Positions 38,528 to 39,142 of a stretch of 64,000 nucleotides of DNA are shown in pieces; position 1 is the stretch's first letter, and every line of letters starts with the position of its first letter. The position numbers were made by a program, and so were the translations under genes. The notes beneath the pieces are model-generated. The model searched no databases, was not told the DNA's origin, and saw only the letters and a program-made list of their open reading frames with translations. This stretch comes from Noviherbaspirillum soli (GTDB lineage Bacteria; Pseudomonadota; Gammaproteobacteria; Burkholderiales; Burkholderiaceae_D): contig NZ_JACYOX010000024.1 in the NCBI RefSeq assembly GCF_015352955.1, positions 1-64,000 on the forward strand, in the 5' to 3' direction.

Positions 38528-38783
38528 TTTCTGGCAGTCTGATGTGGGGACAGCGTGGCTGAATGTTGTCGTATTACAATTGTTACGTATTTAAATATAA
38601 AAATTGATAGTTCGAATTTGATTGATGGCTTTTCTTGAAAAGACTTTGCATGCGCTTGCTAATTAAGCGACGCGTCGTCCATGCAGACCTGCTTGACTTC
38701 ATGGGGCGGTAGTTACCCGTTGATCGAACCTCACAAGGAGGTTTCACTTGACAGCAGCTTGTTTGCTCCCGTAAGGTTCGGAC
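38528..38783. other. AT-rich intergenic region upstream of the leuA leader
   Basis: This region has no gene I can support. It holds two promoter-like pairs on the plus strand: TTGAAA-N17-GCTAAT (38635-38663) and TTGACA-N18-TAAGGT (38748-38777). A perfect AAGGAGG (38735-38741) lies 6 bases before a TTG that would open an 8-codon reading frame. The second promoter would start transcription at or next to the leader ATG, so the first is the easier source of a translated leader. Confidence 0.35.
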
Positions 38784-38873
38784 ATGTATTTCGCTCACCG
38801 ACCACTCTTTTCGTTCAGCCTACGTGACAGCCTGGCGCTGTCGCTACGACTACGCCTACCGCTCCACGCGTAA
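38784..38873 (+). CDS. Putative leuA leader peptide (29 aa, Leu-rich)
   Basis: A 30-codon ORF starts at ATG 38784 with TAAGG 7 bases upstream. It encodes 8 leucines in 29 residues, with the C-terminal half reading [14 protein letters not shown]. Four of the eight Leu codons are CTA, a rare codon in this GC-rich genome. It lies 270 bases upstream of leuA on the same strand. This is the hallmark of a leucine-biosynthesis leader (compare leuL of enterobacteria). I did not find a classical U-tract terminator after it; a GC hairpin lies at 39103-39118. Confidence 0.6.
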
Positions 38874-38921
38874 GCAAGTCAGGTCGGCAGGTCCGGCCCC
38901 AGGCAATCAGAACGAAGGTCC

Positions 38922-39044
38922 ATGAGCATGCATTCCCACCGATACCCAGCAAAAAATTCCTGCCGCATCCAGTTCCTGCAGGGCGTTCTTTCGCACGCAT
39001 TCGCAGCGCTACTGCTACCGATCGGTTGCCTGGCCTCGCGTTGA
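38922..39044 (+). CDS. Second small ORF in the leuA leader region (40 aa)
   Basis: The ORF starts at ATG 38922 (GAAGG close upstream) or ATG 38928 and ends 98 bases before leuA. It contains AALLLP encoded with CTA CTG CTA. It could be a second leader peptide or a chance frame; the initiation site is weaker than that of the ORF at 38784. Confidence 0.25.
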
Positions 39045-39102
39045 GTGGCAGTCCGGCAGCCTATCCGCCACATCCAGAACTCCAGAAGTCCCGTTTGCAC
39101 GA

Positions 39103-39118
39103 CGCCGCGTTTGCGGCG
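39103..39118 (+). promoter_or_regulatory. GC-rich hairpin upstream of leuA
   Basis: CGCCGC (39103-39108) pairs with GCGGCG (39113-39118) around GTTT, 24 bases before the leuA start. There is no T-tract. It could influence leuA translation or be part of an attenuation fold. Confidence 0.4.
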
Positions 39119-39142
39119 CCCACTATTCGACAAGGAATTGCC

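Follow-up and report, generated by a model that had tools for sequence, protein, structure and literature searches.

A putative ribosome-mediated leucine attenuator with two serial leader peptides and a predicted pseudoknot upstream of leuA in Noviherbaspirillum soli

The leader of leuA in Noviherbaspirillum soli probably acts as a ribosome-mediated leucine attenuator, a reading to which we give somewhat better than even chances; it would combine two serial leader peptides with a pseudoknot and operate without an intrinsic terminator. We analyzed a 64,000-nucleotide stretch of DNA (hereafter, the window), in which leuA (39143..40810, forward strand) encodes a 555-aa 2-isopropylmalate synthase of the TIGR00970 type (NCBIfam TIGR00970, 812 bits; cut-off, 697). 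Based on sequence comparison among relatives, both the proposed sensor (Leu-rich leader ORFs) and the proposed switch (a conserved RNA element) are supported.

The first leader ORF, uORF1 (38784..38873, forward strand), encodes a predicted leaderless peptide of 29 aa with 8 Leu residues, 4 of which are specified by CTA, and it ends 269 nt upstream of the leuA ATG (39143). The initial annotation had described this ORF exactly, on the same strand as leuA and with a gap of about 270 bases. CTA accounts for 26 of the 1647 Leu codons (1.6%) in the 34 long ORFs of the window; given this usage, the probability of at least four CTA among 29 codons is 1.7e-7. We conclude that uORF1 is real and far from chance.

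An exact TTGACA (38748..38753, forward strand) lies 18 nt upstream of TAAGGT (38772..38777, forward strand), which is followed by 6 nt and the uORF1 ATG (TTGACA-N18-TAAGGT-N6-ATG). The AAGG within TAAGGT had been taken for a ribosome-binding site; in this setting it more likely belongs to a -10 hexamer, with TTGACA serving as the -35 hexamer of a putative leader promoter. The case for TAAGGT as a -10 hexamer is built on comparison among relatives, which carry, for example, TACATT, TAAAGT, TACAGT, or TAGAGT at this position; TAAGGT itself matches the -10 consensus at 3 of 6 bases, and for that reason it was absent from our promoter-scan listing. The pattern TTGACA-N17/18-TANNNT-N6/7-ATG was present in 82 of 101 nonredundant leuA upstream regions and in none of 50 first-order Markov shuffles of each. 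It was also present in 81 of 86 Oxalobacteraceae-type leuA loci, and within the N. soli assembly (5.6 Mb, 105 contigs) it occurred once, at this site, with a reversed-pattern control giving 0. The leader pattern was first spotted in a scan whose score favored Leu and CTA, whereas the counts quoted here come from the plain pattern. Removal of 8 duplicates and of L017, at a contig edge, yielded the 101 nonredundant regions; L002 is the other leuA of N. soli. The leuA upstream regions of two same-genus genomes (G002 and G001) are the same as those of Noviherbaspirillum suwonense and N. pedocola across the final 300 nt that were compared. The 86 Oxalobacteraceae-type loci are our own choice (L001, L003-L016, L018-L020, L026, and L036-L107, minus L106 and duplicates), and some of them are MAGs labelled just Burkholderiales or Burkholderiaceae. 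An SD-like motif lies within 6 nt upstream of the uORF1 ATG in just 6 of 82 loci. From the geometry of TTGACA, -10 hexamer, 6 nt, and ATG, we infer that the leuA mRNA probably starts at or beside the uORF1 AUG, i.e., that it is leaderless.

Across the 82 loci with the pattern, uORF1 has a mean of 7.7 Leu codons, 4.1 of them CTA, and at least two CTA codons are present in 79 of 82. CTA makes up 340 of the 630 uORF1 Leu codons in these loci (54%, compared with 1.6% in the long ORFs of the window), and the uORF1 of L060 has 65 residues with 13 CTA codons. Because the reading frame, the Leu richness, and the CTA codons are all kept across relatives, as a comparison suggested in the initial annotation shows, control of leuA by leucyl-tRNA supply is still the best reading of the locus. 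That part of the initial proposal is supported; its single leader, its ribosome-binding site, and its output hairpin are not.

By eye, we also noted a tandem 9-base unit (tttccgacc) at about 38503-38530, between the leader promoter and an upstream stretch on the reverse strand (37838-38443). The latter, which we take to be ankyrin-like, looks degraded, is split over several frames, and resembles a decaying gene.

Downstream of uORF1 is a second leader ORF, uORF2 (38928..39044, forward strand; alternative in-frame ATG at 38922), which encodes 38 aa and ends inside a conserved pseudoknot; both features had been missed when the locus was described as having a single leader. Its putative Shine-Dalgarno (SD) region, GAACGAAGG, occupies 38910..38918 (forward strand), and its CTA CTG CTA (39009..39017, forward strand) lies two codons upstream of S1, the first helix of the pseudoknot. 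The uORF2 C-terminal sequence LPIGCLA(SR) and the CTA codons are conserved in relatives: counting back from S1, codon -3 is CTA in 80 of 82 aligned loci and codon -5 is CTA in 74 of 82, and CTA supplies 186 of the 317 Leu codons in the last eight uORF2 positions of the 82 loci. Of 67 loci, 48 have an SD-like motif before uORF2, and in 4 the uORF2 frame extends well beyond S1. The set of 67, which was also used for the pairing and accessibility tests, consists of the 72 loci with both parts minus L050 and L053, where the uORF2 start is absent, and L013, L090, and L102, where we judged uORF2 to be atypical. As a side observation, a short CCGGC...GCCGG hairpin recurs in Massilia-type loci (e.g., L081) between the uORF1 stop codon and the uORF2 SD, with another predicted within uORF1 (31 loci).

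The uORF2 SD region is predicted to pair with UUCGUUC and its neighbors within uORF1 (38792-38817). In the 67 loci, the pairing of uORF1 with its own uORF2 SD averaged -14.5 kcal/mol, compared with -13.3 ± 0.26 for swapped sets (0 of 2000 as low) and -13.0 ± 0.29 for codon-shuffled uORF1. In folded leaders, the uORF2 SD was 30% unpaired, versus 41% with codon-shuffled uORF1 (lower in 52 of 67 loci, p = 2e-8). A modelled ribosome opened this SD chiefly when placed in the first half of uORF1: opening exceeded 0.1 in 30 of 66 loci for a stall at the first CTA and in 3 of 66 for a stall at the last CTA. Averaged over positions, opening was 0.33 with the ribosome on CTA and 0.39 with it on other codons, and a first model of a last-CTA stall left the SD unchanged (0.29, versus 0.28 when free). 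Modelled CTA stalls thus open the uORF2 SD poorly, so gating of uORF2 by uORF1 would require queuing of ribosomes, which we assume. Overall, the uORF1-to-uORF2 cascade is moderately supported.

The conserved RNA element (39024-39071, forward strand) consists of two helices. S1 (11 bp), placed from alignments A1 and A2 and their covariation, pairs GGTTGCCTGGC (39024..39034), which overlaps the end of uORF2, with GTCCGGCAGCC (39051..39061); 10 of its 11 pairs form in the window. S2 (5 bp) pairs GTGGC (39045..39049) with GCCAC (39067..39071). The S1 loop holds both the uORF2 stop codon and the 5' strand of S2, and because the helices cross, they would form an H-type pseudoknot if both are present at once.

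In the MAFFT alignment A1, built from 73 loci recovered by a pairing scan and 9 added by hand, 98.1% of cells pair, a percentage biased upward because the scan required the motif; covariation is less affected. In these 82 loci, both sides change at 7 of the 11 pairs in S1 and at 1 of the 5 in S2. Shuffled and slid controls score lower, except that 2 of 500 shuffles match the alignment on one of the five measures. A covariance model yielded 98 matches from 99 sources (L143 had no match at 1e-4), and in the resulting 98-sequence alignment, which was fitted to S1 and not to S2, two-sided changes occur at 7 of 11 S1 pairs and 2 of 5 S2 pairs, with S2 99% paired. For every one of the five measures, 0 of 500 shuffles reached the score of the whole structure in that alignment, and the best slid version was 64% paired, versus 98%. 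S1 is therefore supported by covariation, whereas S2 is well conserved and covaries less well. Comparison establishes the leader ORFs, the placement of CTA codons, and S1, and S2 less strongly. RNAalifold, which cannot draw pseudoknots, returned S1 together with two loop pairs that would compete with S2. Some unpaired positions are also strongly conserved, such as the third bases of codons -2 and -1 (G and C).

Using Rfam, we obtained no match over threshold for the leader in the window or for 10 loci that included relatives; the sole entry in the E-value listing for the leader was a Giardia RNase MRP on the opposite strand (E 4.6). Elsewhere in the window (28444-28583, reverse strand), an Rfam match to HPnc0260 antisense RNA at 59.1 bits (cut-off, 59) overlaps a tRNA on the other strand and is probably due to chance.

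Searching 300 genomes of the order with the covariance model identified the element in 20 genomes (N. soli included) at 21 places, with a single occurrence in N. soli. All 21 matches precede leuA, one of them before a second leuA copy within the same genome; at L142, the leuA frame after the element looks shifted. Most of the 300 genomes had no match. One genome (G266) has two type-2-like leuA genes (L131 and L145) with the RNA element before each.

Natural variants separate or fuse the parts of the leader. Among the 86 Oxalobacteraceae-type loci, 9 have uORF1 and no clear element, including three named Pseudoduganella, two Duganella, and one Massilia; one of the 9, L015, has a weak covariance-model match. 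Conversely, 5 loci have the element and lack the exact promoter pattern. Together, these two groups show that neither half is indispensable. L013 has kept the RNA element and lost the Leu run. In two Cupriavidus megaplasmid copies of leuA, the element lies at the end of one long leader, with two Leu clusters in L118 and one clear cluster in L119, and in an Undibacterium locus (L053) a single leader, predicted to be leaderless, continues straight into the pseudoknot. Such variants, in which one half is lost or the leaders are fused, make the mechanism testable.

We modelled the effect of ribosome position on S1 in 64 loci, using folds without S2. Retention of S1 was 0.82 with the ribosomal A-site at codon -5, 0.28 at codon -3, and 0.0 at the stop codon, which places the uORF2 Leu codons at the border between a folded and a melted knot. 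In the same kind of model, the accessibility of the leuA SD was unmoved by ribosome position on uORF2, and codon shuffling of uORF2 also left it unaffected (0.45 vs. 0.47; lower in 32 of 64 loci, p = 0.58). Gating of the leuA SD by uORF2 was rejected, since its accessibility did not respond in the models. The responses of S1 and of the uORF2 SD to ribosomes are, at this stage, modelled only.

Between the pseudoknot and the leuA SD is a spacer (39072..39130, forward strand) that is C-rich in relatives (38% C and 19% G across 64 loci). The leader as a whole has 37% C and 23% G, versus 33% C and 31% G in leuA; this excess of C is modest and does not test for Rho. Consistent with the earlier remark that no T-tract terminator is visible, we found no terminator-like site at 38650-39250 (0.5 expected by chance), and no U-tract follows S1. 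A hairpin within the spacer (39103-39118; about 39100-39119 in our analysis) had been put forward as the output. Of four same-genus loci examined by eye, the window and L003 have it and L004 and L005 lack it, so that two of three relatives are without it, and we rejected it as the output because it is not conserved within the genus.

We propose the following mechanism, in which the transcription start, the queuing, the direction of regulation, and the role of Rho are inferred. Transcription would begin at the uORF1 AUG, and ribosomes would load at the RNA 5' end and read the CTA-rich uORF1 directly. When leucine is plentiful, uORF1 would be cleared and its RNA would pair with the uORF2 SD; the few uORF2 ribosomes would reach the stop codon inside the pseudoknot and keep S1 melted. 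When charged leucyl-tRNA is short, stalling and queuing on the uORF1 CTA codons would expose the uORF2 start, and a stall on the CTA just 5' of S1 would let the pseudoknot stay folded. The folded pseudoknot would be the ON state for leuA, most likely because the transcript would then escape termination by Rho, or decay, within the C-rich spacer. This output is a guess, and the step is hardly supported at all.

The closest parallel that we found is the LEU element of Actinobacteria (Seliverstov et al. 2005, PMC1262725). As described there, it comprises a Leu-rich leader, a pseudoknot, and a base stem involving the leuA SD, and its mechanism was left unresolved in 2005. Like the locus described here, it lies upstream of leuA and has a leader ORF with a Leu run, a pseudoknot, and no obvious terminator (PMC1262725). 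The betaproteobacterial locus has Leu-run leader ORFs (uORF1 and uORF2) and an adjacent pseudoknot, albeit with weaker covariation in S2, and differs in having two serial leader ORFs and CTA codons instead of CTT/CTC. No base stem joining the Leu run to the leuA SD is evident in it: the duplex in the window is predicted at -4.8 kcal/mol, and leuA SD accessibility is unaffected by codon shuffling of uORF2. We examined five actinobacterial leuA regions. The four given to a pseudoknot finder have a Leu-rich leader that ends within an S1 loop, and in each the crossing helices outscored all 60 shuffles; the fifth, from a Streptomyces plasmid (L124), has no such leader. By eye, two of the actinobacterial regions (L116 and L117) have a -10-like hexamer 6 nt upstream of the start codon. 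The betaproteobacterial covariance model matched none of the five regions, and we therefore do not claim homology of the knots; with a shared architecture and no evident base stem, we regard the betaproteobacterial element as a variant that would act as the LEU element does, not as a member.

Other precedents bear on single features. In Streptomyces lividans, LeuL1 (MRFGLLLLSCRGEGL) precedes leuA, is Leu-rich, and is reported from RNA-Seq to be leaderless, with no typical Rho-independent terminator (PMC8079986). It thus offers an independent precedent, with the difference that it is a single 15-aa leader, and the passages on it mention no second one. For Streptomyces coelicolor, PMC1262725 cites leuA leader mutations with effects not consistent with classical attenuation and states elsewhere that they do not influence regulation. 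Corynebacterium glutamicum, too, has a presumed leader before leuA, in which four Leu codons follow one another (PMC4046766). In Sinorhizobium meliloti, the rnTrpL/peTrpL RNA likewise begins at the ATG of a leader ORF, but that system concerns tryptophan, transcription attenuation, and a single leader (PMC7298713). We found no description of a betaproteobacterial leuA leader in the literature searched, which lacked most subscription journals and all bioRxiv preprints.

One alternative is translational attenuation of the actinobacterial type, in which the run of Leu codons sequesters the leuA SD and a stalled ribosome releases it; we consider this unlikely. A base stem of this kind is described for the LEU element (PMC1262725), and some actinobacterial loci are strongly complementary (e.g., Microbacterium, -15.8 vs. 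-9.9 ± 2.6 for shuffled sequences). Across 81 betaproteobacterial loci, own pairs averaged -9.2, about 2.5 sd below swapped pairs (-8.66 ± 0.21), but the difference from shuffled SD regions is small (-9.2 vs. -8.8 ± 0.3); uORF2 paired with the leuA SD at -12.5, versus -11.9 ± 0.27 for swapped partners (26 of 2000 as low). Since the duplex in the window is so weak and the leuA SD is indifferent to both uORF2 codon shuffling and ribosome position, pairing of the Leu run with the leuA SD is not evident in these betaproteobacteria despite the weak preference over swapped partners. Equally improbable, in our estimation, is classical transcription attenuation. In enterobacteria, rare Leu codons cluster in the leader peptide leuL, which precedes the first leucine gene; it is led by an SD and accompanied by an antiterminator and an intrinsic terminator, and Rfam includes a Leu leader family. 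The leader peptides of our locus do carry regulatory Leu codons, GC hairpins lie 3' of uORF1 in Massilia-type loci, and a hairpin with a U-run seemingly occurs in a few relatives (L022 and L028, by eye). Against this reading stand the lack of a terminator-like site at 38650-39250, that of a U-tract after S1, the poor conservation of the spacer hairpin within the genus, and the absence of an Rfam match.

The pseudoknot might instead bind a protein or metabolite, with the ORFs being incidental or merely setting ribosome traffic. The strong conservation of unpaired positions, such as the third-position G and C of codons -2 and -1, would suit a ligand, and a protein ligand was favored for the actinobacterial element (PMC1262725). 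This explanation leaves no role for the enrichment of CTA at fixed distances from S1 (80 and 74 of 82 loci) or within uORF1, and we give it only a small chance of being right. Programmed frameshifting at the pseudoknot, yielding an extended LeuA, is far more doubtful still. The 6-nt spacing from the last CTA to the pseudoknot resembles that of frameshift signals, and the leuA frame in the window is open back to 39026; however, the leuA frame relative to uORF2 is distributed nearly uniformly (32, 25, and 25 of 82 loci), and conserved frameshifting into leuA was rejected on that basis.

The generic pseudoknot finder used on the actinobacterial regions was also run on other loci. The finder is strict: it reached its best possible p (1/61) in just 44 of the 86 Oxalobacteraceae-type loci, and its misses therefore mean little. 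We gave it 23 loci from outside the class, 3 of them from named alphaproteobacteria (L121-L123) and 20 from genomes of another class of the phylum, presumably Alphaproteobacteria (L146-L165). Seven of the 23 attained 1/61 and an eighth attained 0.033, with no correction for multiple testing. Among 20 loci of the same class (L166-L185; 17 outside the order and 3 inside), it reached 1/61 in none. For Shinella (L121), the best solution of the finder differs from the one seen by eye, and for Rhizobium (L123), the finder was negative where a pseudoknot was seen by eye. We regard the pseudoknots outside the class as a lead, not a survey.

Tentatively, and with somewhat less than even confidence, we suggest a widespread class of leucine sensors on this type of leuA, spanning Actinobacteria, some alphaproteobacteria, and Burkholderiales. 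Its members would share one geometry. The leader would be leaderless, or almost so, with its final Leu codons a few nt 5' of a pseudoknot and its stop codon in the pseudoknot loop; the decoding ribosome would open or spare the knot and in this way gate the gene, with no intrinsic terminator. In Oxalobacteraceae, the system would have become a two-stage cascade, with one leader gating the next. With a leader peptide, a pseudoknot, and no terminator, the actinobacterial system was left open in 2005 (PMC1262725). A counterpart in betaproteobacteria, whose pseudoknot differs in sequence, whose CTA placement is extreme, and whose leaders come as a serial pair, offers a comparative handle on it. If the proposal is true, betaproteobacteria use a leaderless mRNA as a sensor, and the RNA element involved is one with no Rfam match.

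Two further groups of loci were seen in this comparison. Three loci of the same class and another order (L172, L173, and L174) have a different leader in common, MKTAHTLILLRQHACLRLVSPRLRG, for which the finder returned no pseudoknot. All four loci fetched from one family outside the class, with genomes of 6 to 7 Mb (L161, L162, L164, and L165), reached the best p of the finder; their leader ends in LLLLGLIGDRRVR in three and in LLLLGLTRGCRVL in one, the predicted pseudoknot is strong, and one S2 strand is SD-like (AGGAGC:GCTCCT).
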